Shown one piece after another: positions 1 to 36,391 of a stretch of 64,000 bases of DNA. A program made the translations under genes and the position numbers. Location: positions 186,001 to 250,000 of the forward strand of contig JAKTTT010000014.1 in NCBI GenBank assembly GCA_030581615.1. Reading direction: 5' to 3'. The notes beneath the pieces were generated by a model. The model saw only the letters and a list, made by a program, of their open reading frames with translations, did no database searches and had not been told where the DNA came from. Numbering within the stretch: the first letter of the stretch is position 1; each line of letters opens with the position of its first letter. The stretch is from Alloascoidea africana (taxonomy: Eukaryota > Ascomycota > Alloascoideomycetes > Alloascoideales > Alloascoideaceae).

Positions 1-754
1 AATGCTACTTCTAACCAAACTGTGTACTACTGTATCTTGTGTATGCACAGATCTTCTTCTTCTCGTACCAAACTCACTGAATGAACATCCAGCTGCTAAC
101 AATTGACTGCCCTTATCAAAAGCAAGTTCAGCCTGGCCCTCATAAGTCCAATCCGTATCTACAAATCTGAAATAGGCCTCAGAAATAAGAGCTAGAATAG
201 GGATTTCGTAAAGGATGGTTTCGGCCCATTTCCCCGAAACCTCAATGTCCAGATCATAAGAGGACTCTTCAAATGTAATTCGAACCTGATTCACAGGATC
301 CAGGCGAAATGTCGACAGATACTGATAGTACTCTTGCGGTAGATAAGGGACAGCCTTTCGTAGATACTCAATTTCATCGGGTAAAAAAGTGAGATCTTCC
401 AGGTCTACGAATACAATTGTTAGACGGTTTGTAGTCCAAAGCCTTTGAAAAGAGTGAAACTCACAGTTTACTTCTTTTCTGATCCAATCAGCGGCTTCTT
501 GGTTGAACTTCATACTAGGAGTTCTGTTTGTATACTTGTACAAGACCTCTACGGAAATCGCAAATTAGATAAATTGGTATATTTCTCCTTGAACTTTCCA
601 TTTTTGGGTCTTTCCATCGCTGCTTACCATCTGTTGGAAAATGCTTGTAAACAGCCGCTTGCATTGTAAGCTTGTAGAGGTCTGTGTCCAGTAACGACAC
701 AATGACTCGCTCATCTCGTATGGCATCCGGCTCCTCAATTAGTCTTTCACTCAT
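1..754 (-). CDS. NPT1: Nicotinate phosphoribosyltransferase, 5' part (two introns, runs off window)
   Basis: Converts nicotinate plus PRPP to nicotinate mononucleotide in the NAD salvage (Preiss-Handler) pathway. I read three exons: 754-628, 548-465 and 404 to the window edge, with introns of 79 and 60 bases (GTAAGC...TAG and GTGAGT...TAG). Splicing joins SLLDTDLYKLTMQAAV to KYTNRTPSMKFNQEA and then to YLEDLTFLPDEIEYL, the order found in yeast Npt1. Further on, SEAYFRFVDTDWTYEG and the conserved SEFGTRRRRS segment are clear. The start ATG at 754 gives an N-terminus about ten residues longer than in S. cerevisiae. The C-terminal half lies outside the window. It is divergent from ASF1, with about 800 bases between the starts. 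Confidence 0.95.
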
Positions 755-1550
755 TGAGCTAATGTTTCTTTTATATTACTGTTTGAAGGTATAAAAGAAA
801 AGAGTTCAGTAGCCGTATCTTCTAGTTCTAGAGACTTTTTAGCGTTTAAATTGCTACCAGGAGTAGTAATTACTCACTTCCTTAAACACCCGTTCTCCGT
901 TTACTCGAGACCATCCACTGGACTTTTATTAATTCTGGTATTAACTCTGGTTCTAGACTGAGAAGAGGGTGTCCAATCAGCAGACCAGATTGCGCCCGAC
1001 TTCTGCATCGCCGTTAGATATTCAAAGTAGCTGCTTGCTTTGAAAGTTCTAATTTTTATTATTCTTTGTTATGTGCCTCGCAGATATTCTGAGGTTTTGC
1101 ACAAAATTATATTTTCATATTCTGTTTTTGTGGGCAAATACAACGAGTTTGTTTTCTTTGTCTCCCATGTTTCGTTTTCTTATTCTCGGCTTGTAGACTA
1201 TTCCAATTCTAGCCACATGCTCCCTGATGTTATGAAAAGTTCAGGGTATAATCGGCAGCGAAGGCCATCCAACTCGGTTAGGAGTGAGTTCCAAAGCAAA
1301 AGAGACCGACCGGACTTGACTATAGCACAAGTTCCAGCAAATTGCTGTCACCTAAAGGAAAAGGAAGAGCACATAACACTAACTTTCCATACGGAGATAG
1401 CCATAAGATTTCAAAAAAGAAGAAATTGTAGAAGATGGAGACGCTGTGCATCACGTGATCCAAACATCTCTTGCAAAAATGAAACCACACGCGTCCTTCT
1501 TTTGATAAACTAGAGTAAAAAAGCATAGACACAAGTAATCGCATCGCACA
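755..1550. other. Divergent NPT1/ASF1 intergenic region
   Basis: This is a promoter region shared by two divergent genes. It holds a perfect CACGTG palindrome near the ASF1 side, listed separately. A 157-codon open frame on the plus strand (1040-1513) crosses it, but it has no recognisable domain and I treat it as chance. Nothing else stands out. Confidence 0.6.
1450..1459. promoter_or_regulatory. ATCACGTGAT palindrome, Cbf1/bHLH-type site
   Basis: The ten-base perfect palindrome ATCACGTGAT lies 91 bases upstream of the ASF1 start codon. In yeasts TCACGTG is bound by Cbf1 and other bHLH factors. The position suits a promoter element; binding is inferred. Confidence 0.5.
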
Positions 1551-2658
1551 ATGTCGATAGTATCGCTACTGGGAGTAGACGTTTTAAATAATCCTGCCAA
1601 GTTTACCGATCCCTATGAGTTTGAGATAACATTTGAGTGTCTGGAGCCTTTGAAGGATGGTAAGTTATATATCTACGCGTTGTGGGTCCTGAATTAGTTC
1701 TTGATTGCACAAAGTGTAATGTTCTAACTGTTTATCATCTAGATTTGGAATGGAAACTCACTTATGTGGGGTCGTCAAGATCGTATGTTCATTCTGTTTA
1801 TAGTCATCTTGCTCACTGAAATTTCCATTTGGTTTCTAATTCTTTCATATCATAGACAAGATCATGACCAAGAACTCGAATCTTTCCTGGTAGGACCAGT
1901 ACCAATCGGTGTCAACAAATTTCTGTTCAAAGCAGATGCGCCGTCCCCAGAATTAATCCCAGCAGCGGAACTTGTCAGTGTCACAGTTATTCTCCTCTCT
2001 TGCTCTTATAATGACCAAGAGTTTGTGAGGGTCGGCTACTACGTCAATAATGAGTACGACAGTGAGGAACTAAGGGAAAACCCACCGAATAAAGTCCAAG
2101 TTGATCATGTTGTGAGGAATATTCTGGCTGAAAAACCCCGGGTCACACGGTTCAACATAAAATGGAATAATGAAGGAGGGGACCCTAACGAATTCCCCTC
2201 TGAACAACTTGATGGAGATCTGCGTATGAGTTATTTCGTGTTTTCTCAATAATGACTAGTTTACTAACTCCCAGGATTTACTAGTTGATGATGAAGATGA
2301 TACCTATGGCGACGAAGAAGAGGAGGAGGAGGGAGAAGAAGAAGAGCAGGATGAGGAAGACGAGGAAGAGCCTCCCAAGAAGAGACAGAAAGCATCAAAT
2401 GATAATGGGAACGATGATGACGGCGATGAGGGAGACGAAGATGACGAAGATGATGACGAAGAGGCTGATGAAGTAGAAGAAGCTGAGGAGGAAGCCGAAG
2501 AAGAAGCTGAAGAAGAAGAAGAGGTCGAAGTTATAAAAGTTCAGACTAATGATACTGTAGAAGATTCTCATAACCAGAAGGCAGTATCAAGTATAAGCCA
2601 GACGACCACAGGAACAAAGCTATCCCCAATCAAAGCCCAGGAGATAGAAACAAAGTAA
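1551..2658 (+). CDS. ASF1: Histone H3-H4 chaperone Asf1 (four exons)
   Basis: Nuclear chaperone that binds the H3-H4 dimer and hands it to CAF-1, HIR and Rtt109 during replication and transcription. Exons are 1551-1659, 1743-1782, 1856-2223 and 2285-2658, giving 296 residues. The N-terminus [18 protein letters not shown] and the core segments [31 protein letters not shown] and RFNIKWNNE are hallmark Asf1 sequence. The third intron carries TTACTAAC followed by two AGs; only the second (TTTACTAG) keeps the frame, opening an Asp/Glu-rich tail of about 90 residues that contains a PPKKRQK nuclear-signal-like stretch. A long acidic tail is typical of yeast Asf1 and absent from animal orthologues. 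Intron retention would stop the protein just after the globular core. Confidence 0.95.
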
Positions 2659-4241: not shown

Positions 4242-5537
4242 TCAATACAGGACAAATTGGGCTTTGCCAGATAAGACAGCAATGGTGCAACCGTCGCCTC
4301 CAGAGGCGGTGCTACCACTGAAGACGCCATCTTCATACTTGCAAGTGCCACTGATACTGGCGCCACCGACAGCCTCGATTCTGACATTGAAGTTGGCAGC
4401 TTCGTAATTGTTCGGGTTAGGGATTAAGGACAGATAAGCTTTGCCATCTGTGTGCCCTGCTCCAAAGACCAATGGTGCCCAATTTCCAACTTGTGACGAT
4501 GGTGTTCCCCAAATGCATCCGTCTTCGGCGCTTACACCAGCATTGTTAACGTAATACTGGGCAGATGTTTTCATAGACTGCCAGGAGTAATATTCATCGC
4601 CATCTACAACGGAAAGTGGTTGGGATCCACCACCATTAACAACAGTTGGGATGCACATATTTTCACTTCCTGGATAATCGGTTCGACAGATGCTAACAAC
4701 GTTGTCAAGCGTTGAGGTGACGACTGCCAAGTCTTGATCTTGCTCACAAAGATTTCCCTGGTTGGCATTTGTACGGTATAAATATCCATCGTCCTTGCAG
4801 TATAGCCCACCAAGAGAAACGCCATTGGCAGGCTGATTGCTGGGCCATTGTGTCTTGGACATACCAGGCTGGCAAGCATAAGAGCAATAACTCCCGGGAC
4901 TGCAAGGGCCCGAGTTCTTGGTGTCGCCATTTTCGTTTGCAATGGTGGTCCAACCTCCAAGTCCGAGCCAATCAATTGAAACTACCCCATTACCGCTGGG
5001 GAACTTTGAACATTTAATTGTCCCATCTTCGAAAGACCCAGAAGACCCAGAAGGTTCAGATGACCCAGATGGCTCAGCGGACCCAGAAGATTGGAAAGAT
5101 CCGGAAGGTTTGGATGACTTAAAAGATTGAGATGACTTAGAAGATTGGGGTGATTCAGATGAGAATTTCCCAGAACCAGAGCTGGAAGTTGAAGGAGTGT
5201 AGAATTCAGAGGCAACTGTAGTGGAAGCTGAATACGAGAGTCGGGTCGCAAAAGAAGGTTTAGAAACGATAGCTGATGCTGAAGATGAACTTGTATCTGA
5301 AGCGATGGAGCTTTCTTCATAAGAGTCTGTTACACCCAACTCACTAAAAAACTCGTCAGCAGAAACTTTTGCTTGAGGGTAATGAATCTTGGTTACTGTT
5401 TTGTGCACAACGACAACGTCATCACGTTTGTGCTTATGTTGATTGTGAGAGTGTTCAATGGGTGAGGGAGCTCCTTGGACACCAACCAAGTTGAATGAAG
5501 CCGCCAGGGCAAAAACGATAGATGATGCGAATTTCAT
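4242..5537 (-). CDS. SUN-family secreted cell-wall protein (Sim1/Sun4/Uth1/Nca3 group)
   Basis: Secreted wall-associated beta-glucan-modifying protein of the fungal SUN family (GH132), involved in septation and wall remodelling. The 431-residue protein has a signal peptide (about residues 1-22, ending GVQG|APS), a Kex2-type KHKR site at 35-38, a Ser-rich linker (about 76-165) and the cysteine-rich SUN domain to the C-terminus. Diagnostic segments include [52 protein letters not shown] and EDGCIWGT. Length and architecture match the family. No intron is needed. I cannot tell which of the paralogous S. cerevisiae members it corresponds to, so no symbol is given. Confidence 0.95.
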
Positions 5538-8500
5538 AATTCAGATGTTGTCTATAGTAGGAAACCTAACTTGAAGAAATAACTGAAGGTTAGTAGGAAA
5601 GTTATTGGTCGCTCGCCCGTTGGCATGAATTTGAACCCAAGAAAACAGACTCCAGAAAAGTCACAATCTAGATTGATTCAGACGCAATGATGCTGATATC
5701 CAGACATTGATCGATATTTGTGGCACTACTCGAAGGCAACTTACTGTTAAGGATAAGTACTGTACAAGGTCAAGGTCGACTGCTCCAGAGTTACAAGGAG
5801 TTTATTTCTATTTAGTTTTGATAAAGGAGAGAGAGTTTGTCCACCAAGTAAAGGAAAGTGAGATCTTCAGAACTATGATAGTTAGAAGAAACAGAGAAAA
5901 GGAGAGATAACAAAGGACGGACAGCAAAAAGCTACGGATAGACAATTTAATAAGAGAACGAAACAAAAGCAAGAGAAGAGAAGACGTTACAAGGAAAACA
6001 CTGGTGTTTATATATTTCAGCATCGATGTTCAATTGCACTCCTGCATATTATGTCTGCTGTACTTTTGCCTGTAAAGATTGCTGCTGCTTTCACTTGCCC
6101 ATGCAATTGAGGATAGCCACATTCGAAGAAAGCTTTTTTGACACTTGCAAATTATCTCATTATCTTAATACTTTTTAACCATTATTAGATTTGATATCCA
6201 TGGCCCGAGGAAAGACTTTTCTAGTATATTTTTAAGGACCACATTGATTCTCTGTTCGTTTTTTTGGCCATCTACTTATACTCAAAGTTTGCCAATCCAT
6301 ACACCCTTCATGCAAGATTCAAGGAACATTTTTCAATTAAGATTTGAAAAAGTCCCCCAGATTGGGATCTAGATCGATCGACGACAATAACTCTTCTCGA
6401 AATTCCAAAAGCTACAGAAATGAAAAGGCCAATAAGTCTAGCAAGAGGAAAAGTCTGTGTGCGAACCAGACCGAATTTCAGAAAAAATAGTCTTCCATTT
6501 TTTTAATCAGCTAGACATACCTAGCATCCAATGAGTATAAAGTAATATCAAACCAGAGTAACTTTTCCCAGAGATGACTTGAACTGCAGGTCATGAAGAT
6601 ATACCCCAACGTTCATTTAACTTTAGTATTTGGCGAAAAGTGGTAATTTTCCACTTTGGTAGTCTTGATGTACACTTAGATCTGCTGGCTGGGGGCTTGT
6701 TCTGGATCTTCTCCCACATTAAGAATCCTCCAAGATTGATAAAACCAAGATCTTTGCTTTGAAACCAGTTTTAGTTGCTGGTGATTCTGTCAAGATAGTG
6801 TTTTAAAAGATGTATTCCCAGATTCGGTGTTATCTGTATTTTCAGTTCAAAGTGCTAGCTCTACCAAGAAAGCACCAGAACCAGAGGATATCACGACTTG
6901 TTCTCAACGGTCTAACATATGACGGTTTAATTGCTTATTGCTTTTATGCAGGGATTATTTTCTTTGTCGCAGAGAACACATAATTGACACAGGAATTCAC
7001 GGATAATCCTATTTGGTCTTAGTGCTCCACTTTATTGTGGTTCTTTGATGAGAACAATAATCCCACGTCTTGGCTACGAAAGCGGTTTACTTCCCTATTA
7101 GTAAGGAAAACAAACAAAAAGAAATATCTCTGGGAAGCACATTAACAGCTTTGGATTATGGGAAGAAATCTCGTTAGTTTCAGCAGTTTGGAAATAGGTA
7201 ATTCCACTTAAAATCACGAAAGAAACACGGATATTTGGAAAAGCATAACACAAGTACTATGTATCTTTCAACTTCACCTTTGGACATAAAATGTATCGCA
7301 GGAGCACCCGGACTACTAAAGTAGCCGCATAACGCTATTGAGTTGTATTTAATTATCTTCGAAAAGTTGATGAGAAGTACTAATTCCAAATATTTTCTGA
7401 TGACATCTTTTTTTTCGGGCTAGTTTAGTGCTATTTCAATCACTCTTGGAGAAGTTCTTTTCCAACTTACACGAGGATTAATTCTTGTGTTCTGTCCGTA
7501 AGCTGATACCTTTGATAATTTTGTTTGTTGTATTGTCCAAATTCAAGGTTGAAGTTCATCGTTACAGGCAACGTTGCAGTTTCTGTGGCGATGGGTAACC
7601 CTTGAAGAGAGACTTTTTCTATGCATCCATTGGCTTGTCTTAAGATCGCATCAGCAGATTGTCCTCGTGCTTTAACTTCAGTCGTTCCGAAAATGATTAA
7701 CAGAAGTATTAATCTAGAACTACTAAACCTAGTTTGAATGTTTCGGGGTAGAGGAGGTTAACATGGATAACGAAAGTCAAAGGAATACCGCTGGTCCATG
7801 AGATCTGCTTCCATAGTCAAGGTCTATTATTTTTGCTATGTATTCTTCATTCGTATTATGTTCCCAGCTCTCTCTGACGTCTATGACAGACTAGTATACC
7901 CTTCAGTTGGCTGAAAATTTTGACAAGTTTTTTTGGCTTTGAGATGTGCATGAGTCCATTAACACGCCAAACCTGGATAAATCTCAGTCCCACACTATCT
8001 ATTGATCCCAGATCCTGGTCTGGTCAAAAAAGAAGCTTTTAGACCAAAAAATCTTTTGAAATTCAGACAGGAGATTTTTCTTGCAGGATGGCTGAATGCG
8101 AAGGTACATTTGACTAGGCTCTTCTCTTCTGTGTCCCTGCACTATGGATAGAAGAGAAATCAAGCAATGGTTACATCTGTTTTTAGGGGCATAACAGTTG
8201 CTTCATACTTGCGGTTCTGTCATTGTTTTATAGAACTTGATAAGAATTCTGTTAGCTGATTTTCACCAAACGTACTCTCATGCTTTTGCTTCCAATTCGA
8301 TGGACAACAGTAGATCTGTGAAAAGTCAGAGGCTTTTTGGGGGGTAATGCGATATTGGCATGTCTTGCTCACTATGAGTTCTACATAAATAAAACCCTGA
8401 TAGGTTATTACGCTTGGATAGATTATAAGCTCTTTGTTTTCTATATAGAATTGAAAAGGGCTTCCTATATGTATACTTTAAGAAATAGATCAGCAGTTAT

Positions 8501-8848: not shown

Positions 8849-11323
8849 CTACTGAGGTGGTAAACCCAGATTCTTTAGCGAAGGCAATTTTAAGTCTCCA
8901 GTTTTTGAGGAAGTGGAAACGTCCGAAGTCGCTTTCGACACTGAAGAGGGGTCCTTGGCAACTGAGGTAGCTGTTGTCAAAACTGGATTATACAACATAT
9001 CGTGCGATGCTTCGCTTACGGTGGAAGAGGTGGTAAGCAAAGATGGCACATTAACTGGAGCTTGATTGGGATTCCCAGTAGTAAGAGACATAGGAAGGGA
9101 GGGCAAGGCTCCAACTGTACTTCTTCTGACCGGAAGACTCAGAATTGGAGTCAGTGAAGGTTGTTGTTGCACTTGAGATCCACTAGCAAAGAGCTGGCGG
9201 GCGACAATATTCGATCCTTTGCCTGCGTATTGTAAGGCTGTTGGAGATGGACCTGATGTTGACGTTTTTGCGCTTTGCTGTAAGAGTTCGGTCGGACTGA
9301 TAGAGATACTAGAACCAGAAGCAAAAGAAGGACCTTCACTTCCTATATTATAGCTCCAATCTGGTGTTACAAGTGATGTAGAGCTTAAAGGTAAAGAGCT
9401 TACAGTAAGCTGCTGCCTTTGTTGAAATGGGTCCACTTGTGGCAGTACCAGCAGTGGAGGAATACTCCCGGTGCTTAACGCTCGCATCTGTTTGAGAGGA
9501 GGGGCATGTAGGTCTGAACTTATTTCCTGCTCTTCCCGAGACCGCAAATCAAACGTACTAGGTGTTGATATTTTTCTTTTGTTTCGAATACTGCTCAATG
9601 GGGGAGTTGTAAATTGTATTTCAGACAATGGAGGAAGAGGTGCCGAGGGTTGAAGCATAAATCGCTTCCCTGCAGGCTGTGGACCCTTAAAATGGCTAAA
9701 GGCTACTGCTGATGATGGAGGAGTTGTGTGAGTCTCATGTTTGGGCACTTCTTCTGGTGGAATATAGTTAGGAGGATGTCTTGCTTTGGCTTCATTTCCA
9801 GCTTTGGTTCTACAAAGTACATGTTAGTTCTCAGTTTCGATGGGAATATGCAATTCAAGAACTAACTCACCTTTTCGGTTCTTTTCGAAGCCTAAGCCGA
9901 ACTCCTTGTTCACAGACCAGTTTTGTCAAAGGAGAAGATAATAGAGATCCAGAAAACCTTTTTGGCGAAAGAACTAAGATAATTGTTAGTTGATACGTCC
10001 ATCAACGATTTAGCCCAATTAATTACAATACCTGAGAAAAAACTTGAGTCAATTGAAGCTTTGAATGACAATCCCTTTTCACTACAAAAATTAGTGGAAA
10101 GTTTTGGCAAAATTATCTAATTCCACTCACCTTAGCTCAAAGAGTCTAAACTTTAGCTTAAACTCTCCTGGAACCAGCATCGACAGATCTCCAAAAACAA
10201 AATACAGTCCTGTGTCCTCATGGTATGAGATCGTATTACCTGATGCCGATCGAATTCCCAGTAGAGGATATGATGAATCATGATTGAACTTCTCAATGAG
10301 CTTTTCTTTTCCTTTGCTTGAATGAGGTGAATAAGTTTTTCGAGAAGTAGTCGAAGCAGCTTTGCTTTTAGCCTTCTTGCCTTTGGATGTCGTAGGCTCT
10401 TCTGGTTTTTTAGAGTCTTGAAGTACTTCACAGAACACAAGAAAAGTTTTGCCAAAGAGCCAAGATGGACTATACTCTATTGAACAACGATAAGGAAGGT
10501 TAGCGATGCACTGGGTAACTTGTGAGATTTCACTTACCATCACAAAGACCTTTTGGTGGATGGTCTAGGTTTTCCCTGACAACTGAAACTTTTAGAATAG
10601 GGGGAGGATCTAATGCTCTTCTATCTATCTGTCCGGTTTTATCTGCTGGTAAGGTAACTTTACATTGAATTGGCTCCTGCAAAAGTCTTATACTGTATTG
10701 TGGTTTTCTAATCCAAAGCATGTTAAAACGGCTGGCCAAAAGATTGCAATGACAAATACTTTGTACCTTTGAGGCTCCGAATAGGAAACCCTTGACTGAT
10801 TTAGTGCCTGTTGAATTGTTATTTGATGTTTCCCGATACCTGAAGTTATTCCTATACTGCTTGAGCTTTCAGGAACATTTTGCTCGCTCTGAGAGTATAA
10901 GCGGTGCGTCAAAGATGAAGACGATTCTGAACCTGTTATATTTATGATAGATGACTGTTGAAAATCCTGGGGCAAGACAAATCCAGGGTACGAGCTTGAT
11001 GTAAGGGCTGGACCGAAACGTAGTCGAGCTTTGTGCTGGTGACGATCATGTATGTCTCCCGTGCTGTGAAATCTTCTGCTGAATAGGTCTGCAGATTGAA
11101 TTTGTGAAGTCTGCATAGTAGGCGCTTTTGTGACTTTTTGTGTTGAACTGGCGGATGTAAAGATTAATTGGCTTGCAAGCAATGGCTCTGTTGCTGGAGG
11201 ATGGTGGTGTGAACTTTGATTTTTGGTAGACAAATGTATTGATGGGGCTTGCCGCTCACTCGAACTTTTGTCGTCAGATTTTTTTTCATGCTTCAAGTTT
11301 TCAGGAATATTGAAGCTATCCAT
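8849..11323 (-). CDS. Velvet-domain transcriptional regulator (six exons, 728 residues)
   Basis: Velvet proteins are fungal DNA-binding regulators of development and secondary metabolism (VeA, VelB, VelC, VosA) with an NF-kappaB-like fold. Exons, 5' to 3', are 11323-10767, 10707-10538, 10476-10131, 10081-10032, 9973-9871 and 9809-8849; the five introns are 49-61 bases and every phase agrees. The domain begins QYSIRLLQEP (about residue 189), then DRRALDPPPILKV (214-226), then SWLFGKTFLVFCEVL; a Lys/Ser-rich insert of roughly 60 residues follows. It resumes with GLYFVFGDLSMLVPGEFKLKFRLFEL (ending near 357), SVLSPKRFSGS and EQGVRLRLRKE (to about 406). An insert in the middle of the domain recalls VelB. 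A Ser/Thr-rich N-terminus (185 residues) and a long Ser/Pro/Gln C-terminus (about 320) look disordered. The subfamily is uncertain. Confidence 0.86.
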
Positions 11324-12781
11324 TTATATATTCCCAACGGAAGATTTTGACCTTAAATGCTATGTTGTGGTGCTCAAAAGATAATAAAACAGCTCAAGTA
11401 TCATCCAAAATATACAATGCAAAAGGAAATCGGAAGTAGTGATTGAGAGAAAAAAGTAGAGAAAAAGAGAGATTCTCCGAATAAGCGCTCAGGCTGGGGG
11501 TGGCACAGGGAACAGTGTCAGGTTAAAACACCTGGAAAATTGAAAGCGTAAGGTTCCGAATAAGATCAGTGAACGCCTTCAATAGCCAAAGGTTAGAATT
11601 AGAAATGGGCTCTGGGAAGCAATGATATGTGAATTGACAATTCTATTTTATTGGAACAACAAAGATAAAACACTGCTTTCGATCAATATATCAAACCAGT
11701 TTCCAAAGAGACCTGAGGTTGTAAGCAAAAGAAGAATTAGAACGAGTATTTAGATAGACAAACTTGTTAGTGACTAGGTAAAGTATGCTTAAAGAAAATG
11801 TGGTTGTTTTTCCAGTCTAAAATAAAATTCTGACAACCAGGATAGAGAAAAACACTCTTCTCCTTCCTCTACTATATTATATAATAAGGGGAAAGCATCT
11901 AAGAGATCTCCAGAGTTTTAATGCAAGAAGGGTTACAATATTATACTCTCCATATGCCCAAATTTTCGCATTTGACAGAAAACGAATGAAGGCGCCGAGA
12001 AAAATCCTGAAATGTCTATTGCATGGTATAGCAAAATAAATCCCAAAATCTATTTAATGGCAACTGTGTATTAGAATTGAATATTCGAGGATTGGTGTGT
12101 ATGGCTGATTATTAGATGTCAATGGTATGGGGCGACATTAAGGCCTTAGATAAAAACATTATTAACTTCAAATCAAAAATCAATAGAAAAGGAATATCAC
12201 TCCAGTAGTAAGACAGTTTTTGCAAGGTTTTGTTCAAAAGGTTTATCATTGTAATTAAAGAAAATTGTTGGTAATGTTGACTGCATGAGTATGAAGGTGC
12301 GCCTTAACATAATAGTGAGAACCACATGCTCAGGTGGAAAAACCTCCTTAGTATTTGGTCAGAAAAACCTTTTTCCGCCACTTTGTGTCCCTTCAAACAG
12401 TGACAAACTTGAGCACAATTTTCCTGCCAATCATTACATTTTGTTCACTGGTGTAAATGTTGGTTATGCAGGTTATACAGTCGCATCGTGCAGACGCCCA
12501 GCACATATGCAAACTTACAGTATCTGGACGGAAAAAAGCGTGTCATCTATTTAATATGTCCACAGACAGGGTCATATCATATAATTGGAGACACTTTGCT
12601 TGAAATTCAAAGTAGTTCAAAACGGTGGGATCTGAGTCATCAAAGATCACGAATCAGATATACGACTTGGAAAATTGTCGACTTCCTTATCCGGCTAGGA
12701 AACCAATACGCTCCACCGCTTCTTACTTGTAAAGAAGAAGTGCGTCCCTCGCATTCTTTGCAATTTGTAATTGGACACCCT

Positions 12782-13356
12782 TCAAAAATAATGGTATTTT
12801 AGGAACCAGAATGCTTCAACATTCTGTTTGTGTCTTTGGCCAATAACGTTGGATGAAAGAGAATGTTCCTTGTAGACCATCATGGAATATTTCAATTTGA
12901 CAGGATGGATGACCTGATAGAGCCCTCCATATTTAAAATTCTTTGTACCGGTGAAAAGAACGAAAAGCAATGGTTTTGTAGAACCTTTTAGTGTTTTGAA
13001 TCTGTCTTCGGGCTCGTCACCTCCAGATTTAGGTTTGCGTATCTGTTTTGCATCTTTGTTATCTTGTATTCCGAGTTGTATCCACAGTATAGGCTAACTT
13101 GAACAAAAAAAATGCGCTCTTGACTATATTCTTTTAAATCGAAGTATAAAAGATATGGGAGGAACATTACGACCGCCATACAGAACCATACATATATCGC
13201 TTGGCACACACTACACCAGTAACTAATTATAATTTGAAATCTGTTTGTTGGCTGTGATCTGTCCTGACGCAGGAAACAAAGCATTACGACCATCATGCGC
13301 CAGGCATATATTAGAGTAAAACCATGCTTGGCCTCACTTATTATGTAATTATGCAA
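12782..13356 (-). other. Coding-like fragments, possible decayed or unmodelled gene
   Basis: Two overlapping minus-strand frames look more like protein than noise. One (13356-12988) has hydrophobic stretches such as YLLYF and AIYVWFCMAVVMFLPY. The other, downstream, reads DRFKTLKGSTKPLLFVLFTGTKN and then KYGGLYQVIHPVKL. I could not join them with convincing splice sites and recognise no family. A multi-exon gene, a pseudogene or chance are all possible. Confidence 0.25.
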
Positions 13357-13668
13357 ACTGATTTTTCCTTTCGATTATGGCGAGTTCATTCCATTCAGTT
13401 ATCAGAAGCAATCAGCCAAGGTCAAATCAATTTGCAATCAAACGGGCGACAGTAAAACCATCAAATACTGATATATCTCCACTTTTTCCTTCAAATATAC
13501 TTTTGACTTGTCTCACAACAACTGACACAACCTTCACTCTATGCATGTTTTAAAAAGTCACAATCTTTGGGAAGGTTCTGTTCTTCAGTGGGCAATTCTC
13601 ACAAAATGCACACAACCTAATAAAAGTTTTACTGATCAATTGAGTTCACTTGGAACTGCCATTATCTA

Positions 13669-14001
13669 CTATGTTCTATTTGGAAACCGATTATTTGTTG
13701 GCAGAGCCTCACTTTGTAAAGGCGATGTTTGGAGGCGAGAAAAAGACATTCCCATTCCTCCCAGATCTTCTGTAAAATACAAAATCTTCTTTGCGCCATT
13801 TGAATTGGCAAAATGATGCCCAGCATTAATGTATGGGAATAATTCCGCGTGGTCTTCTCTTGAGTCGATCTCATTGTTTTCCCGGAAGAAGGGGTTGCCA
13901 GATGCATGCAGGTACAAGCGTCTATTATTGGTGAAGACGTATGCAGGGCTTGGCCTTGGCGCCAGCCTCGTAAAATAGGAGATAGCATAAGACTGGATAT
14001 C
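13669..14001 (-). other. Coding-like exon or gene remnant of unknown family
   Basis: A minus-strand frame of about 110 codons following a possible acceptor (GTTAG) reads SYAISYFTRLAPRPSPAYVF, then RRLYLHASGNPFFREN and FPYINAGHHFA. The composition is protein-like, with balanced charged, aromatic and small residues. There is no start codon at its head, which suggests an internal exon or a remnant. I do not recognise the family; a resemblance to fungal surface-protein beta-helix repeats is only an impression. Confidence 0.3.
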
Positions 14002-14832
14002 TGTTCTAACACTTATCCAATAGCAGAACGAAAATTAAACAAAGTTCTTGTCAACAAATTGACAATAAAAAACCTATAAACTTCATGCCTTGAATGAAAT
14101 CAACCGTTTTGTTTCGAGCTGTTTGAGGGGATTTGGACTATCAATTCAGTGGTTTTCTTTCACCATTACACCTAGTGATTGAAAATACATAGTTAAAGGC
14201 AGTGAGAAATTGAAAACATTTCGTTTCTCTATTTCTTGGTACTCCAAAAACAGGAAACATTTAATATCATTCCAGAAAGCCATTCATGCCTGATAAATTG
14301 TGACATAGTCGTAAAATGGCAAGGCTTACAGGACGGTTTATTCACCGTTTATAATTTTTCATTCCATTCAAGCAAAACATGAGCAATTATTCCTAGTTAA
14401 CAGTGATATAGAGAAGGCAATGAAATGCTTCCGGTATGGAGAATAGTACATTAGATTGACAGTGTCCTTACATGATGACATCGGGCTTCCACGCATGCAG
14501 ACACACCCATTGTAGTTATTAGCAGGCGTTCGGAACAGCAGCATCCGCATGCATATTGAGGATTGGAAGATGGGCCTCAATAACACTGGACTATCATCTA
14601 GACTGATCTAATCAATAGAAACATATTTTTTGGTCTTTGAGAATGAGGAATGGACAAATAACAGAAATGAATAGTATCCTTTAAACAAAATGGCTTAGCC
14701 TCGACAATTCCTCGAATATCGAATCTGATCAAGATATCTATGATACTTGAGGTTTTGACGTGACAGGCAGCTCCAGATGCATTCACCATCAGCCTGCTGC
14801 TTTCCCTGAACATAACATCAGTATCATTCTCC

Positions 14833-15903
14833 ATGGAGGATGAGACGGCTCAGAATGCTGAGCTTTACCAACTACTCGGTAAGTAACTAAAAAGATGTTT
14901 TGTCACTTTGTTGTAGTCCTAGTGGTAAGCTATCAACATTGTGAATTACTTGATTCAGACGGGAACACGGGAAAGCTGTTTAGCAATTAAGCAACTAAAT
15001 ACATACATTTTATGCTCACAGTTGGATGTTAAAATAACACAGGAACTGGAGTATTGTGCCGCGTTGCGTGTGAAGGGATCAATTTATTTGTTGGGATTCT
15101 TTTGAACAGTATATGTCAAAGAAATTGCATACTTCAATTATTTATCATTCCATCGATGCTTACCACCTTAGTGAATATTCATTGTTAGGGTCGGATCATC
15201 TAACATTCTCTTTCTTTTTGTTAATTTTGCTTATTTGGATTTTACTGGATTTTGAAGTGGGTAAAGCAAATAGCCGCTGGTGTAAAAATAAGACTAGCTC
15301 GACTGATTTCAAGTTATTTTTTATTGGTTAAGAGACGCTCAAAGTTTAAATATCTTGCACTTTCTATAACTGTTTGCCTAACATTGTAGACTCTACTCAA
15401 TCTGAAGCTGATGCTCTAGTGTGTTTGAATTTTTCCTCTGGCAGAATTTCTAGAAAAATAGGAGCTTTAGACCAGTCACAGGTAAGCTTATTATTTCTTC
15501 CTTTGTTTAGAAAAAAGCAAGTGAAGGAGAATAGGGGGAGTGCTAGCTTCATAAAATTTAACTGGTTGATCTGCCTTTAATTCAATTAAAAAAAAAATCA
15601 CGCCAAGTTTCTAATCTTCAGGGATTTTTATATAATAGATTTGCAGATGGTACAAGTCATTTTCTTATTTATTGCATCTAATTTTTATAAAGGTATTTTT
15701 GGTCAGAACATGACCTGTCATCTTTCTCTCGCTCTAACCTTCTCTTTTATTTCTGGCCCATGTAATTCAATCCTTTTTTCCCTCAAAGTAAAACTATTGA
15801 TTTTGGCATTTGGAGAGATTAACGCTACATAGTTCGCGACGAAGTGTTAGAAGATTCTATCACAAATACTTTTGCATCTGTCTATGGTTCCAAGAAAGCT
15901 TGA
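14833..15903 (+). CDS. Possible small spliced gene, unknown function (four exons)
   Basis: A tentative model joins 14833-14878, 15390-15481, 15647-15692 and 15833-15903 into an 84-residue protein, and all phases agree. Exon 1 reads MEDETAQNAELYQLL and ends at GTAAGT. Exon 2 follows CCTAACATTGTAG, reads STQSEADALVCLNF and RISRKIGALDQSQ, and ends at GTAAGC. The last exon reads VRDEVLEDSITNTFASVYG and stops. The third exon is hydrophobic and is the weakest part. The frame is also open upstream of the ATG to a possible acceptor (GTGACAG), so the true start could be further 5'. Family unknown. Confidence 0.33.
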
Positions 15904-17953
15904 TTAACTCGGGAGAATCTACTGATAGAGTTAACCGAAATCCCAGAACCCACCCCCAAAACAGCAACCTCTCAAATACACTTAAAGGGAACAGCTATAT
16001 GCCAATACATATGTCTCACTTTATCATTAATGATAATTGTTTCAACATGTAAAGCAGGATTAAAACAAGAAACTCATTTCCTTTTCTAGCCGAACGATTT
16101 TTTAACTCTTTTGGTCATTCCCTATCCCTTAAACATTTTGGAAAAGCCTTTTTAAAGACATTTATATTTCTTTGACAATTAACGATGGACTTATATTCAA
16201 GGAGAACCTTTTGTATTTCCCAGGAATAATATTACTCTTTTATAAAACAAATTGCTGTTGAAATAAAAAGAGGCAAAAGCGAAATGCCCGCTGTATCTGA
16301 TTGCAATTTCAGCTCCCTGGTAGACATGAAAAACCATAAACTCATGAAAGCATGGCAGCATAAATCTTATCAAAACTTCCAGTAAACAAGTCAATATTCT
16401 AATTAAAAACCCAAAGGAAAATTTGCCTGAGGAGGTGCTTTGAATTTTAGAGACAAATGATCTGGCTTAAATAATGCAGTCATGAAAAAAGCTCACAATA
16501 AACTGATATGTCTGGAAAGCCTTTGGACTAGCTTGTCTAAAGAAAGCCAAATATCCATACAAAAAAAGTAAATGCTTTTATATATAAAAAGTACCTTTAC
16601 AAATGAAGTTAATCTCTCTATCCAGCGTTTACCCTCAAACTCATTTGCCCACAGAGAGACCAAAAAGGCCTATTACTAAATGTTATTCGCCTGTTCCATA
16701 CCTCCTGAAGTATTACTGATTATCTTCAAATAACGTCTTTCAACCAAAAGGATATGAATCTAACCGAAATCGAAACTTACCACCTCTCGATGATTATCGT
16801 TTGCGTAAAACAAACATTAAAATAAGCAACCAGCACTCTCTTGTGCATGGCAATAGCAGATTTGACATAAGCAAGGAGCGGAGAAGAACAAAAATCTTTC
16901 CACAACTCAGGAAAGCACTCCTTAGGTCCATGTTCAACTAGTTTGAAGTTTTCTCAAATAATCTTTAAACAGAGACTGACCTCTGGCATGAAGGGCTTCA
17001 TAATTTTCAAACTTTGTAAGCCATATTTTGCTTTACTTTCAAACATATTAAGATTCTATCCGAACTAGAATTATTAAATGGAAGAATCAGCATTTAATGA
17101 GGCTAATGACCAAAACTTCAGACTTTTTTATGTTTTGTTTAACTATTTGCAAGTATCTGAGATAACTGTTTCAGCTCCAGGTTGATTGTTAGAAGTAGGT
17201 TGTAAAGTTCAGAATTTACTCTAACCAGAGAATCCAAAAGGTTACAATCCTAACTCCCAGGGAAAAAAGACTCAAAAGACACACAGTTTCTGGATAACAA
17301 ACTAAACCAGAAATAAGAATCGTTGAAATTGATGAAGAGGTTTGCAGCGTCTTGTCATTGACTTTCGTTGGGTATTAACCTGTTGTTTTGGGAGTCAGAT
17401 ATAAAGATTTCTTTCAAAAACAAAAAAATCATGCTTCCAAAGCGGCCGGTCACAAAGCATAAAAGTCCATGAATTGTCATTTTAGAACCTGAACTAACAT
17501 TTTATAAACGGAGCATTTGATGACACCTTTGCACATTCAATTGCTATCTTAGCTTTTCTTCATCAAGGTTGCAAAGAGAATAAGCGAGATAGAATTGAAC
17601 TCACAATTTATACTTTCCGAGTTGTTTGATGATAGACCATATTTCTTTGCAGATTCAATCTTTCCTAGTTTTGGACTGCGACAATCATGAGGTAAAAACT
17701 GTCAAGTTATAGCACTTTCTCACTACAACCCTATTCATAAATACCCTTATCAGAAACCTGAGAGCACAAGACAGAGTTTTATCGGCACTTGTGTTTGAGA
17801 ATTTTCTACAAACCTTTCTTTTACCAAATACAAACTAATCGTTTCTTTAAAGACACTAAAAACTGTTGAGTCTTTATCTCTGATATCATAATTGCTAGTA
17901 TCCCTTACTAAAAAAAATAAAAGGAGGAAATCCATACAAATTCCCCAAAGTGC
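15904..17953. other. Gene-poor 2 kb region
   Basis: AT-rich sequence with no open frame above about 80 codons and no recognisable similarity on either strand. It probably includes 3' sequences of the neighbouring minus-strand gene. Confidence 0.55.
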
Positions 17954-18646
17954 CTAATCTGCAATGAGAATATCCTTATTAATGAATTTATCAGTCAGAA
18001 TACAATGCGTTGCAATGATGTGACCCACAGATTCCCTTGAAACAGTGTATCCTTTAACATCCTCACCAAATCGCACATTACTATTCAACGCCCCGTCAGT
18101 GAGAATAGTAGGCCGTACTATTATCTTCTCAGGGATAGCAAGCTCTTTTAAATTTGCTTCCATAACTTTTTTGTCCTCATGTGGACTACGGAGCAGTGCA
18201 TAAACAGGCCATAACAGAAATGGGACATCGCTGGATTGGCCATCCTTTTTCAAAGGCGTTATACCGGTGGTTGATATGGCGATGATTCTTTTGAGTGGTG
18301 TTTTAGTCTTTTCCAGAGCCTCTTTTAGTACGGCCATCGAGTCTCCACAGACGGTAGGGTTATCGTTGACAAAGCCCGATGTTAAAGAGAAATGCGGCTT
18401 GCCCCCAATGGCACTTAAAAGGATGTCTTGGTTTTGGATTAATCCGATGACATTCTCAACGTTGAGCGCATCTCCTTTTAAAACTGTTACGCGGTTATTG
18501 TTTGTCGCTGGGTCTGTGCCCTCTAATTTGAACCGGCTGGGATCGCGGACAAGTACTGTTATCACGCAGGATTGATCTTGCTCCAAAAGAGTTCGGATAG
18601 CAGCATTTGCACAACCACCAGTAGCACCAAGAACAGCAATTCTCAT
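17954..18646 (-). CDS. NmrA-like / atypical short-chain NAD(P)-binding oxidoreductase
   Basis: Predicted 230-residue cytosolic protein with an N-terminal Rossmann fold: MRIAVLGATGG is the dinucleotide-binding glycine motif, followed by strand-helix spacing typical of NAD(P)H-binding (NmrA/BVR-B-like) proteins (VLVRDPSR, VLKGDALN, DILLSAIGG). The segment RIIAISTTGI followed by a downstream IIVRPTILTDG resembles the SDR-like active-site region of the flavin or biliverdin reductase group. The substrate cannot be told from sequence. It is a single exon with its ATG at 18646. The upstream region (18647-19027) separates it from SRP68. Confidence 0.75.
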   Translation of the reverse strand: MRIAVLGATGGCANAAIRTLLEQDQSCVITVLVRDPSRFKLEGTDPATNNNRVTVLKGDALNVENVIGLIQNQDILLSAIGGKPHFSLTSGFVNDNPTVCGDSMAVLKEALEKTKTPLKRIIAISTTGITPLKKDGQSSDVPFLLWPVYALLRSPHEDKKVMEANLKELAIPEKIIVRPTILTDGALNSNVRFGEDVKGYTVSRESVGHIIATHCILTDKFINKDILIAD

Positions 18647-19027
18647 CTTGAAAGGTAGTTTAATGCTCGGACTGGTTTTAAAACCTTTCCCCCTTTATAT
18701 ACAGTAGAGGCACGTTTTGATTGCTGAGGCTAAGCACTGGTGGCAATCTCCACTGGTATGACCGATAATTCCACAGCCCCGCCATCAAACCTATAATCAA
18801 AAAGGTGCTTGTTTAATCGGTCGTCGGGCCACGAAAGCCGATCGGGAATCGCCTATATCCCGATCAGAGAATGGAAGCCCACATCAAGTAGTAAGTAGCT
18901 TGGATAGGATTTTACATACTCAAACTGCCAAGTATCAATACATTGTTCATTTCTATACAACGTGAACGGGGCAAAAAAGCTAAACTTCATTTATCAAGTT
19001 GATCTGATAAATTTTCCTACGAGATTG
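18647..19027. other. Short intergenic region between SRP68 and the NmrA-like gene
   Basis: About 380 bases, presumably the promoter of the NmrA-like gene plus the SRP68 3' end. It holds a TTTATATACAG TATA-like run about 45-55 bases upstream of the NmrA-like ATG. Nothing else is evident. Confidence 0.45.
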
Positions 19028-20887
19028 TTAAGACTTTGACCAAAAGCTAAAGAACCCACCACGTTTTGCCTTTTCTTCCGAACCTTTTACCTCCTCTTTC
19101 GTTGTGCGTGGTGCTGATTCTTGTGGAGTATAACGCATGTAATTGAAGGCAACATCGAAAAGAACAGGTTTTATGCTGACAGGCAATAACCGGGGATTTT
19201 TGTCGACAATACTTGCTAGAACGTCTTTTGGATGTCCCTCTGGATATATTTTCAGATTGTCAGCGACGCTAGTTCCATATCCTGTTTCGGTTAGAGCTGA
19301 ACTTGAATGCTTGTAGTGTGCCAAAAGGTGTACTTTTGCCAACCTGGAGGAACACTCTTTTTGTAATTCTTCAATATCCTTTGTAGTGAGCAGATCACCT
19401 GGAAATGCTACAGTAATCGGTCCAAGCTCTTTTGCAAGCTTATCAGCTTTGTTTAACAAGGCCAATGCTTTCAGAGTGGTATTCTTGGAAGACTCCTCGT
19501 CTGTTGACTGGAAACTAAAACTGGAAAGAATAATCAAGAGCCTCCTAATATTGACATATCCATGAAAGTACTGAAGCGAGTTTGAGAGTTCTTCATCTGG
19601 ATAAACACCTGGCAGGTTCTTCAGTTCTTCTAGATTATCCAGAATTGTATCGTACAGACGAATCACTTGTCCAAGCTTTTCAAATTTTTTTAAACTTGAG
19701 CGAGGTTTTTGTTTTGCATCCTTGTTGTTTCCGTCATCATTGTCCAACTTGGTCAGTGTCTCGGAAATCAAGAGCTGGTATCGTTGAATAGTTGTGAAAA
19801 GGAGGTAATAATTGATAAATGTAAGCACAATTTGTCGGTGTTGTGATACGTCATCTCCATCATCTTCATAAGCTCCATTCCCTGCAGATGTAAATCCTGC
19901 TTCTATTTCCTTCTTAACCTGCTCTTTAGCATCTGACCAACCCTCAATTACGGGATCAAACCAGTTTAAGCTGAAATCCTTTTCACTTGAACTCTTGGAC
20001 AATTCAGCAGCAAGCTTTGATTGTAACTCTTTTTGCAAAAACTTTGCGTGCGCCAATTGCCTCGCAAGACCATCATTGTAAACCTTTGCCGTGTGATCCC
20101 GCCATGTCACCTCAGTTACAAGCTCTTCTTCTTCTTCTTCTTCCATATCATCATTCTGGGCTCGACCTCTAACTCTGCCTCTATTCTCAATAAAGCGTGG
20201 CTCTTCCTTTTCAAGAATCTGAATCGCCGCATTTGTCCTATCACAATGCCTTGCGCTGATTCCAAACAGATCGCTTGAAAATGAAGCATCTTCTTTATAC
20301 GCTGCTGTCACAAGGCCAGGCTCAATAAGCTTGTCACATTCCCTATAAATGTCTGAATCGAGCTGGTTCACAACCTTGGAGAGGTAGGACAGAATGATGA
20401 TAGCTGTGCCAAACGACTTTGTAACTCCTTTCCAATTTCTCGAGCTTGTCTTTAAAAAACCTCGAATGATTGCTTCATAGGCATACAATTCGAAAACGTA
20501 TTTACTCTCAACCTCAATCCCCTCCCCCGCGATTTGGATTGCCCTTTGAATGTATTTTAAACTCTTTTTCAATTTTGCAACGTAGTACTTCTCCCGTCTC
20601 TTGGAAGAGTTGACACTCAACACAGCCATGGTTTCAAGCGCATGAATTCTATCTCGTTCTGCCAAAAGAATAAACAACTCCAATTGTAAAGGTGAGGCTG
20701 GTTTCGTTTCTCCTTCTATTTTCTCCTTTTCCCCTGGTTTACCATTGTTCTTGTTGGGTTTCGTCTTGCCCTCCAACACCTTTCGTATTCTCGCTATCCT
20801 ATTTGTCAACGATTTTCGCAAGGCATGTAGATCATGTAAATCGTGGATATCACTGGCGGTCTCAAAAAACTTTAGTGGTTGAATCAT
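19028..20887 (-). CDS. SRP68: Signal recognition particle subunit Srp68
   Basis: Component of the SRP S domain; binds SRP RNA together with Srp72 in cotranslational targeting to the ER. I start it at the ATG at 20887 (MIQPLKFFETASDIHDL); the open frame extends four codons further only with a GTG. The 619-residue protein opens with LRKSLTNRIARIRKVL, the conserved basic RNA-binding helix of Srp68, and is helical, TPR-like throughout (LAERDRIHALETMAVL, YVFELYAYEAIIRGFL). An acidic Glu run lies in the middle. The C-terminal LFDVAFNYMRYTP is the conserved Srp72-contact segment. Length agrees with yeast Srp68. It is divergent from the small gene at 21052 across 164 bases. Confidence 0.92.
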   Translation of the reverse strand: MIQPLKFFETASDIHDLHDLHALRKSLTNRIARIRKVLEGKTKPNKNNGKPGEKEKIEGETKPASPLQLELFILLAERDRIHALETMAVLSVNSSKRREKYYVAKLKKSLKYIQRAIQIAGEGIEVESKYVFELYAYEAIIRGFLKTSSRNWKGVTKSFGTAIIILSYLSKVVNQLDSDIYRECDKLIEPGLVTAAYKEDASFSSDLFGISARHCDRTNAAIQILEKEEPRFIENRGRVRGRAQNDDMEEEEEEELVTEVTWRDHTAKVYNDGLARQLAHAKFLQKELQSKLAAELSKSSSEKDFSLNWFDPVIEGWSDAKEQVKKEIEAGFTSAGNGAYEDDGDDVSQHRQIVLTFINYYLLFTTIQRYQLLISETLTKLDNDDGNNKDAKQKPRSSLKKFEKLGQVIRLYDTILDNLEELKNLPGVYPDEELSNSLQYFHGYVNIRRLLIILSSFSFQSTDEESSKNTTLKALALLNKADKLAKELGPITVAFPGDLLTTKDIEELQKECSSRLAKVHLLAHYKHSSSALTETGYGTSVADNLKIYPEGHPKDVLASIVDKNPRLLPVSIKPVLFDVAFNYMRYTPQESAPRTTKEEVKGSEEKAKRGGFFSFWSKS

Positions 20888-20981
20888 GGCTTTGAACACA
20901 AGTCCTTTCCTCTTTTATTCCTGTGGAAGTGGTGAAAAAAAAAAGGGAAAGGGTCTATGCCTTCCGAATATGGTAGTGTAT

Positions 20982-20991: not shown

Positions 20992-21051
20992 CAGCACTTT
21001 TTGAAACTCTCAGCAAAGTGGAAAGGAAGAGAATTGTGGAATAAATATTAA

Positions 21052-21552
21052 ATGGATCAGAAAGAGAGTATTGTAAGCATACTTGGTCTTTGCCAATCTG
21101 ACCCTAGGCTGTTTGATGATCTGCAAGAACGAGGCATAAAGTTGGAGGATGCTGATATGAAGGAGTTTGGAACGGGAAGCAATCGAACCAAATGCTACAA
21201 TTTCTACAATCTTGGGATTTCATTTACATTCACGAAAGGGAAAGAAGATCTATATTACTTGGATAGCATTGATTTTTACAAGAGAGTGCCGAGGATTCAA
21301 TCACGAATCCAATCTCGGTATAATACAGTGGCAGAAGGGATTTTGCCCCTGGGGGTCAAGCTGGGGACATCAGCTGGAGAGCTCGTCAGTATGTTTGGCG
21401 AGCCGGATGCAAAAGGCGGTGGCGTTGGACTGGTTGGACAGGACATTTGGCTGCGATGGGATAGCAAGGGCATCCAAGTCGAGGTCGAGGAGCGGTCCTG
21501 GGAAAATGCAAAGGATGCTGGATGGAGCAGTATCACCGTTTTCAAAGACTAA
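21052..21552 (+). CDS. Conserved-looking 166-residue protein of unknown function
   Basis: A single-exon gene that starts MDQKESIVSILGLCQSD and ends SSITVFKD. Its composition is that of a soluble globular protein; I see no signal peptide or membrane span. The middle holds GISFTFTKGKEDLYYLDSI and the C-terminal half LPLGVKLGTSAGELVSMFGE, a pattern resembling small DUF-type proteins in which a GEP segment follows a short helix. I do not recognise a named family. It is convergent with PAM18, and the two stop codons overlap within the four bases CTAA (21549-21552). Confidence 0.7.
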   Translation: MDQKESIVSILGLCQSDPRLFDDLQERGIKLEDADMKEFGTGSNRTKCYNFYNLGISFTFTKGKEDLYYLDSIDFYKRVPRIQSRIQSRYNTVAEGILPLGVKLGTSAGELVSMFGEPDAKGGGVGLVGQDIWLRWDSKGIQVEVEERSWENAKDAGWSSITVFKD

Positions 21553-22153
21553 GGCCAGTTCTGTCGGGTTCCTTTGCCGGAAATATAGCCATCGCGCTCC
21601 AGCACCTGTTTCGCTTCGTTAATCTTCATAGCGATGTACTTGGAGCCACCTCTATCTGGATGATTCTGTTTCATCACTTTCCGGTGTAGCCTTTTGAGTT
21701 CTGTTTCGCTGAGTTGACCACGGAGAGTCGTTTCGGGCAAGCCAAATATCAGAAGAGCCTCTTTTGCGGTCATTTCTTTTTGGAACCCGCCGCGGTAGAA
21801 CTTTAGATTCGAGGAAGAGGATGGATATGAAGAGGAAGAGGAAGAGGAAGCCGAGTCTCGGAAGCCCTTTTGGAAGGCCTCAAATGGGGAAAATGACGAA
21901 GACGATTTAGGCTGTATGGTTTTGTACCTAGTGTATGCTCTGATTCCCGCTCGAGCCTATCGCGAAAATGATAATGTCAGTACGAGCAGAGCAGAAAATC
22001 AAACTACTACGTTTGGGAGGACAGAATGAATACTAACAGTTAATGCAACTATGGTGACCCCAACTCCTATGATTATTGGTAGCACCTATAGACATTTTCT
22101 GGTTACCACCTCTGAATACTTTTATCGAGACTGAGCATCCAGGAACATACCAT
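21549..22153 (-). CDS. PAM18: Mitochondrial import motor J-protein Pam18/Tim14 (three exons)
   Basis: Inner-membrane J-protein that stimulates the mtHsp70 ATPase in the TIM23 import motor. Exons are 22153-22151 (only the ATG is coding), 22085-22038 and 21956-21549, giving 152 residues. The first intron begins GTATGT directly after the ATG, the second begins GTTAGT. The spliced N-terminus MVLPIIIGVGVTIVALTARA is the single membrane span. A Ser-rich intermembrane linker follows, then FYRGGFQKEMTAKEALLIFGL and the J domain with HRKVMKQNHPDRGGS (intact HPD) and KINEAKQVLE. This matches fungal Pam18 throughout. The upstream PFA3 stop lies only 77 bases away. Confidence 0.95.
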
Positions 22154-22230
22154 TCCCGCTGGATTGTGTAGAAATAAAAAAAAAGAGTACAAAAAAGAGT
22201 GTGGGATAGAAGATCTCTCCTGGTAGATGC

Positions 22231-23673: not shown

Positions 23674-23756
23674 GCTGAGAGTGTATTACGATGCTATATA
23701 GAGCTAACTGGAGGAGCAAAGCAAAGTGGAAGGGTTCAGGGCTCAGGGCTCAAAAC

Positions 23757-29466: not shown

Positions 29467-29830
29467 GTAGGCGTGCGAGCAGTGAAAAGCGGTAAGCAGA
29501 CAAAAACGCGAGCGCTGTCCATGTGACATGCATTACTACCCCAATTGGCAACAACGTTATTATATTATTTCTTCCTCGCGCACAGCGATTTGTGCACTCC
29601 ATTCCAAAACAGAAACACAAATACAAGAAATTATAATTGTTAAACGGGGTCTCTCCACTGCCTAATTAGGTTTAGCGCGCTGCCGCAGGATGCTTCCCAA
29701 TCGGGCCGCCTTGCAGCAGGTCCAGCCTCGCGCCCGGGTGCCTCGCGGACCGTATTTGCAGGGTTGCACGGAGGTTCTAGAATAGGTTGCCAGATAAACC
29801 CTAAAACCGTGTTTTCTGCTAGCCGTGTGC

Positions 29831-29869
29831 TTTAGAGAGTGCTCTAGAGAGTGCTCTAGAGAGTGCTTG
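29831..29869. repeat. Three tandem copies of GAGAGTGCTCTA
   Basis: The unit GAGAGTGCTCTA occurs about three times in direct succession, and each copy contains the inverted pair GAGTGCTC/AGAGCACT. It lies about 670 bases upstream of the polyglutamine gene. It could be a cluster of factor binding sites. Confidence 0.65.
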
Positions 29870-35521: not shown

Positions 35522-36391
35522 CTAAAATATACCAAACCATTTCTTTCGTTTCTTCTCTTCATCCATTTTACCCACGGTTTGACTTTGTCCACCTGTCAAG
35601 TCTCCTTTCTCCTTTTCCAACTGACTTTCAGCAATATCAAACGCTCTTAGCATTTGTTCATCGCGGTTTTGCATGATTCGCTCGGCAGCCACCAGGTGCA
35701 TCCGATTTGGCCGTTCCATGGCATAGGAACTCTCATTGTCAACAGAAGAGTAACCACTTGATGTGTTTATCAACTTGTCTTCTAGACCCCGAACTTTGGG
35801 AACAAGATCTTCACGTTCTTGTGCACTTAGTGTTCCTTTGAAAAAGTATTTCAGCTTTAGTCTGAATCTATACGCTGGGGAAAAAATGTGTTCGTATCCA
35901 TCGTTCCATCGATGATAGAAAACACAATAGACAACCACTCCTAATCATCCATAGTGTTAACAGGCCTCCTTTCATGAATACTGAGCGTTTTACTTCTCGT
36001 TCTTTATGGCAATGAACATACCTCCCGTGAAAGCGGTACCCGCTATTTTTAATCCCTGGTTAAACCGATTGTACGTGTCTATCCGACGCAAAACCTTATA
36101 CTGGCCAGGATATAAATCACTTTTCGGTCGAGGAGTATACATCATCTTTTTCATCTGTTGTCGAACTTTCCTGTAACGGGTCTCCTCCGCCGAAATTGAT
36201 TCACCCGTGGTCGTGCTTGTGGGTATTAAATACTCAGAAGGATATCCTTCCGGTGGTCTTTGATCATCGGGATCATAAGGATTATATGGTGCTTTAGGTG
36301 GAATCCATCCCACTGGATTAGGTCTTCGTTCCATCTTGTGATTATGATCGCTATCCAGTTGATTCTCTGTCATTGGAAATCTTGAAATCAT
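35522..36391 (-). CDS. Unknown single-membrane-span protein (two exons), 262 residues
   Basis: Exons 36391-36022 and 35940-35522 join across an 81-base intron (GTATGT...GATTAG), restoring TAFTGGVVVYCVFYHRWNDG in one frame. The N-terminal half is Pro-rich and hydrophilic (NPVGWIPPKAPYNPYDPDDQ, RPPEGYPSEYL). A basic amphipathic segment (RYRKVRQQMKKMMY) and YKVLRRIDTYNRFNQGLKIA lead into one membrane span of about 15-18 residues. A mostly charged C-terminal region ends EEKKRKKWFGIF. The layout resembles small inner-mitochondrial-membrane assembly factors, and the gene next door but one is mitochondrial MDL1, but I cannot assign a family. A second ATG at 36373 could be the real start. Confidence 0.72.

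Follow-up and report, generated by a model that had tools for sequence, protein, structure and literature searches.

The 64-kb stretch of DNA analyzed here, hereafter the window, very probably contains an intact, divergent velvet gene of a Saccharomycotina yeast in which CTG encodes leucine. The gene leans toward the VosA type, was most likely inherited by descent, and would encode an NF-κB–like DNA-binding regulator. Budding yeasts with a velvet gene are natural tests of what this regulator, which in moulds coordinates development and secondary metabolism, does without most of its usual network. The initial annotation took the find as a sign of a lineage that kept an ancestral regulator; it is not novel, since velvet genes in part of the Saccharomycotina are already published (PMC10845976 and PMC5106798). 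While the phenomenon itself is thus on record, this gene is a further, divergent case in which the domain is complete and the gene model can be read.

The six-exon, in-phase model that had been proposed at positions 8849–11323 was recovered on the minus strand. The predicted gene has five introns and encodes 728 residues plus a stop, in phase throughout and with all 728 codons open. Its parts, as placed by the splice model, are as follows.

8849–11323, minus strand: velvet-family gene, splice model, matching PF11754 with 92.4 bits
10767–11323, minus strand: exon 1, start codon and Ser/Gln-rich N-terminal tail (to about residue 186), without a Pfam match
10708–10766, minus strand: intron 1, 59 nt, GTACAA..TTAG, with a weak donor and without a CTAAC branch site
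10538–10707, minus strand: exon 2, velvet motif 1 (QYSIRLLQEP ... DRRALDPPPI) and DNA-contact loop A; the unspliced frame matches PF11754 positions 1–39
10477–10537, minus strand: intron 2, 61 nt, donor GTAAGT, branch GCTAAC
10131–10476, minus strand: exon 3, Lys-rich mid-domain loop (residues 262–313, from the alignment) and velvet motif 2 (YFVFGDLSML ... RLFEL); the unspliced frame matches PF11754 positions 92–178
10082–10130, minus strand: intron 3, 49 nt, donor GTGAGT
10032–10081, minus strand: exon 4, aligned to VosA
9974–10031, minus strand: intron 4, 58 nt, donor GTATTG, branch ACTAAC
9871–9973, minus strand: exon 5, velvet motif 3 (SPLTKLVCEQGVRLRLRKEPKR); the unspliced frame matches PF11754 positions 205–236
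9810–9870, minus strand: intron 5, 61 nt, donor GTGAGT, branch ACTAAC
8849–9809, minus strand: exon 6, Ser/Pro-rich C-terminal tail of about 320 residues and stop, without a Pfam match

All five introns are of the GT..AG type, with strong donors (GTAAGT or GTGAGT) in three of the five (introns 2, 3, and 5) and a CTAAC branch site in introns 2, 4, and 5, the weakest signals being those of intron 1. The junctions are predictions, and alternatives exist for introns 1–4 (15, 15, 18, and 4 open GT-AG pairs, respectively, the chosen one counted); the chosen ones restore the domain.

A search of the spliced protein with the Pfam profile PF11754, a check that the initial annotation had proposed, returned 92.4 bits (with a cut-off of 25 bits) and an E value of 5.6e-26. 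Since residues 190–406 cover profile positions 1–236 of 237, the full velvet domain that had been reported is indeed there. Of the five frames tested without splicing, three match consecutive stretches of the profile, collinearly and on one strand, with 22.4, 34.9, and 24.2 bits, the middle one alone exceeding the cut-off, and the domain is therefore independent of the exact junctions. These same matches show that the three conserved velvet motifs are present in order, in the layout described in PMC10845976, while the two tail frames of the five tested gave no Pfam match when unspliced. The midpoint of the domain lies at 41% of the length of the protein, which is "middle" by the definition of PMC10845976. 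A tblastn search of the 64-kb window with its own velvet domain and with VosA, VelB, and VeA revealed no second velvet copy, and the lone match outside the gene (VosA at 30207–30073, E 0.053) was taken as chance. None of the 30 window frames scanned with Pfam gave a methyltransferase such as LaeA.

A search of the PDB at E values up to 1 returned VosA (1.4e-15), VeA (6.7e-7), and VelB (2e-6) and nothing else. VosA (4n6q/4n6r), which we take to be the Aspergillus nidulans protein, was the best match, with a phmmer score of 60 bits compared to 29.7 bits for VelB (4n6r). When the protein was aligned with these two reference domains and that of VeA (9i2s), it was found to keep DRR..DPPP, the DLS of motif 2, the F.G..S motif, and EQG. 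Among the 145 core columns, 24 are common to all four sequences, and in 16 the three references agree and the velvet protein differs. The DNA-contact region is among the parts that have changed. The triplet just ahead of loop A, R-A-R in all three references, is Q-C-K here, and loop A itself is about four residues longer than in VosA, with a single Lys in place of VosA K37 and K39. The positions of VosA R41 and K42 are both Arg, as in VelB and VeA; VelB likewise has one loop A lysine, and VeA has a longer loop A. In VosA, DNA binding was severely impaired by each of the single loop A mutations K37A, K39A, R41A, and K42A (PMC3876986). Since both loop A and the triplet ahead of it are altered, DNA recognition may differ, and a changed site preference is possible.

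Between the FLVFCEVL and LLGIRSAS strands lies a mid-domain loop of 52 residues, which is 33–37 residues longer than the corresponding loop in VosA (about 15 residues) and VeA (19 residues). Judged by its position, it is the same loop as the one that carries the insertion of VelB, which has 99 residues, is reported as 132–231, and is rich in Pro, Gln, Gly, Tyr, and Ser (PMC3876986). The insertion here is shorter and Lys-rich, the stretch 259–311 comprising 22.6% Lys, 18.9% Ser, 5.7% Pro, and 1.9% Gln. The insert of about 60 residues recalling VelB that had been noted earlier is thus present, although somewhat smaller than stated, and it resembles that of VelB in position but not in composition. 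For the same reasons, the protein lacks two subfamily traits: the continuous domain without mid-domain insertion given for VosA (PMC3876986), because of the 52-residue loop, and the Pro/Gln/Gly/Tyr/Ser-rich insertion between motifs 1 and 2 of VelB, since the loop fits in position but not in composition.

The tails on either side of the domain are also biased in composition, with 20% Ser and 10% Gln in the N-terminal 187 residues and 17% Ser and 13% Pro in the C-terminal 320 residues. Disorder estimated from composition and a simple scale barely separates them from the core (0.17 and 0.20 versus 0.105). Short basic clusters are found at residues 274–277, 402–405, 408–411, and 484–487. Such long tails had been called unusual, but they are not remarkable because velvet proteins with lengths from several hundred up to thousands of residues have been published (PMC10845976).

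Which velvet subfamily the protein belongs to was addressed with a tree of four sequences (the velvet protein, VosA, VelB, and VeA), whose core ends at EQG, where the VeA chain stops, and whose alignment is not reliable between motifs 1 and 2. The best quartet joins the velvet protein, which has the longest branch, with VosA at an ultrafast bootstrap of 46. The approximately unbiased (AU) p values were 0.64, 0.33, and 0.44 for groupings with VosA, VelB, and VeA, respectively, and since the test leaves all three topologies standing, we leave the subfamily among the VosA, VelB, VeA, and VelC types. There is nevertheless a lean to VosA, because pairwise scores and one loop point there. Identity to VosA is 34.7% over 167 aligned residues, and the extra residues that VelB and VeA have after the LFE strand are absent here, as in VosA. 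The domain ends in VRLRLRKEPKR, which can be compared with VKLRIRKEPRT in VosA (7 of 11 residues identical, versus 2 of 11 for VelB). In other respects the protein departs from VosA, since a tail of about 187 residues stands ahead of its domain, which itself has 217 residues as against a mean of about 166 for Pez-VosA (PMC10845976). With VeA it shares the DRR and DPPP motifs, the SPLTK/STPIS motif, and the EQG end, but core identity is 42 of 145 columns for VeA and 49 each for VosA and VelB.

The equal core identity is one reason to consider that the protein might be of the VelB type, with a mid-domain insertion homologous to that of VelB. Columns that match a single reference are likewise evenly spread among the 145 (10 for VelB, 9 for VosA, and 7 for VeA), the long loop sits between the two strands that flank the insertion of VelB, and Sac-Tap-VelB is one of the two dominant velvet clades of Saccharomycotina (PMC10845976). 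We nonetheless regard a VelB-type protein as doubtful, since its insert is rich in Lys/Ser/Thr/Glu rather than Pro/Gln/Gly/Tyr/Ser, the post-LFE residues of VelB and VeA are missing, and both the domain end and the phmmer scores favor VosA. It is also conceivable, if unlikely, that the gene represents a minority, little-studied velvet lineage of budding yeasts, in which VosA-like core parts would be combined with an altered loop A and with a Lys-rich insertion of its own, gained at the VelB site. If so, one protein may combine VosA and VelB features that are split in moulds, with a changed DNA-site preference.

To place the VosA-leaning gene in its genome, we used its neighbors, as identified by Pfam scans that covered 30 of the 133 open frames of at least 80 residues in the window.

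1–775, minus strand: NAPRTase
1743–2249, plus strand: ASF1
4245–5540, minus strand: SUN family
17957–18694, minus strand: NAD(P)-binding protein
19031–20914, minus strand: SRP68
22234–23685, minus strand: DHHC palmitoyltransferase
23760–25079, minus strand: NAD kinase (POS5-type)
36842–39808, minus strand: KAR9
40107–42899, minus strand: ABC transporter
45776–47503, minus strand: three-KH protein
50911–51735, plus strand: endonuclease/exonuclease/phosphatase gene
52929–53786, minus strand: endonuclease/exonuclease/phosphatase gene
58495–59853, plus strand: DDE_1/Tc5-type transposase, an uninterrupted 453-residue frame
elsewhere in the window: adaptor medium chain and ZIP transporter

The Kar9- and Pos5-type genes had been described as lying beside the velvet gene. 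Since the nearest edges of the NAD kinase gene and KAR9 are 12.4 and 25.5 kb away, respectively, they are in the region rather than beside it.

ASF1 was the most informative of these neighbors. It scored 191–200 bits against 15 of the 32 listed chains, which we take to be S. cerevisiae Asf1, and at most 156 bits against the other 17 (156 and 155 for two of them, about 139 for ASF1A/B, and 124 for cia1); one of the two, chain 5zba, is presumably from Aspergillus fumigatus, and cia1 is presumably a fission-yeast protein. The NAD kinase scored 312 bits against POS5 and 178 bits against the next of 14 matches, among which we recognized no other fungal enzyme. The remaining comparisons were of little use: SRP68 matched SRP68 chains only, none of them recognized as yeast, and the ABC gene matched mainly P-glycoproteins and ABCB10, with no listed yeast relative by which the contig could be placed. 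The budding-yeast-like background that had been suggested for the velvet protein is thus backed by the ASF1 scores and weakly by the NAD kinase, and the contig most likely belongs to Saccharomycotina. CTG appears to be read as Leu. Of the 23 CTG codons of the ABC gene, 12 are covered by the alignment, where they face four Leu, three Ile, one Val, one Ala, one Ser, one Gln, and one gap, and the FGDLS leucine that is common to VosA, VelB, and VeA is encoded by CTG in the velvet gene. A leucine CTG argues against the CTG-Ser lineages, to which Saccharomycopsis belongs.

The velvet introns resemble those of other genes on the contig. An ASF1 intron at 1660–1742, readable from flanking codons, has GTAAGT and TTCTAAC, and NAPRTase has a consensus intron candidate at 464–405; the shared style speaks against a contaminating piece. 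Velvet genes have been reported in four Saccharomycotina clades (PMC10845976), and Saccharomycopsis fibuligera has 12 of them (PMC5106798). Most Saccharomycotina genomes are without them, and in the published scenario velvet genes are expected in the ancestor of Saccharomycotina and were then lost from most genomes (PMC10845976). Retention of ancestral genes by some yeasts, the same general phenomenon, is described for Geotrichum candidum (PMC4479816), although the word "velvet" is absent from the main text of that paper, as it is from those of PMC12322030 and PMC2045113. PMC8867778 was set aside as a source on velvet genes because "velvet" there is the assembler.

From this published scenario and from the distance to VosA, we infer that the velvet gene most likely came down from the ascomycete ancestor and persisted here, whereas most budding yeasts lost theirs. 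The patchy presence of velvet genes among Saccharomycotina could also be read as a sign of horizontal transfer from a filamentous fungus, and so could the five introns of this gene, when several of its neighbors are long single open frames. We consider transfer very unlikely, since these introns have the same style as that of nearby ASF1 and four clades of Saccharomycotina have such genes, while the low identity to VosA, together with the longest of the four branches, argues against a recent gift from an Aspergillus-like donor. That the gene might be a decayed copy is harder still to believe: motif 1 is divergent, as could be expected of a pseudogene, but none of the six exons is interrupted or out of frame across the 728 codons, and all three motifs have been kept. 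What the gene shares with the velvet genes reported in other Saccharomycotina (PMC10845976) is its presence in what is most likely a budding yeast.

The published structures of VosA and VelB suggest that the velvet domain of this protein would fold as an NF-κB–like β-sandwich and dimerize, with the basic loop A contacting DNA. The Ser/Pro/Gln-rich tails and the Lys-rich loop are likely to be flexible and might serve in nuclear import or in regulatory contacts. By analogy with known velvet regulators, the protein might control sporulation or yeast–hypha development. Allowing up to two mismatches, the VosA consensus has 87 matches in the window compared to 70 expected, a number reached by 4 of 100 shuffles. 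The 1 kb upstream of the start codon has no conspicuous VosA-type site, only one match with two mismatches (11494–11504). CCGCGG does not occur within this 1 kb and is found three times in the window (2.3 expected).

The window shows several other features. Neither tRNA genes (ARAGORN, bacterial settings) nor Rfam matches at gathering score were detected in the 64 kb. Two intervals, 11324–17953 and 29666–36838, are without an open frame of 150 residues, and their GC content is mostly 31–40% outside 29–31 kb. The two endonuclease/exonuclease/phosphatase genes are convergent and 62% identical over 259 residues, and they form a local inverted duplication. The compact ASF1 gene, which encodes a histone chaperone and spans 1551–2249 on the plus strand, has an apparent second intron just after 1783 (GTATGT) and hence two introns near its start. 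A GC island of 46–57% extends over 21000–26000 in a window of 40.6% GC. GC3 is 0.68 in the NAD kinase gene and 0.54 in the DHHC gene, as opposed to 0.33–0.44 in the seven other genes counted. Finally, compared with POS5, the NAD kinase frame contains additional residues at about 145–205 and 338–397, and a perfect hexamer repeat at 23977–24016 falls in the second of these stretches.
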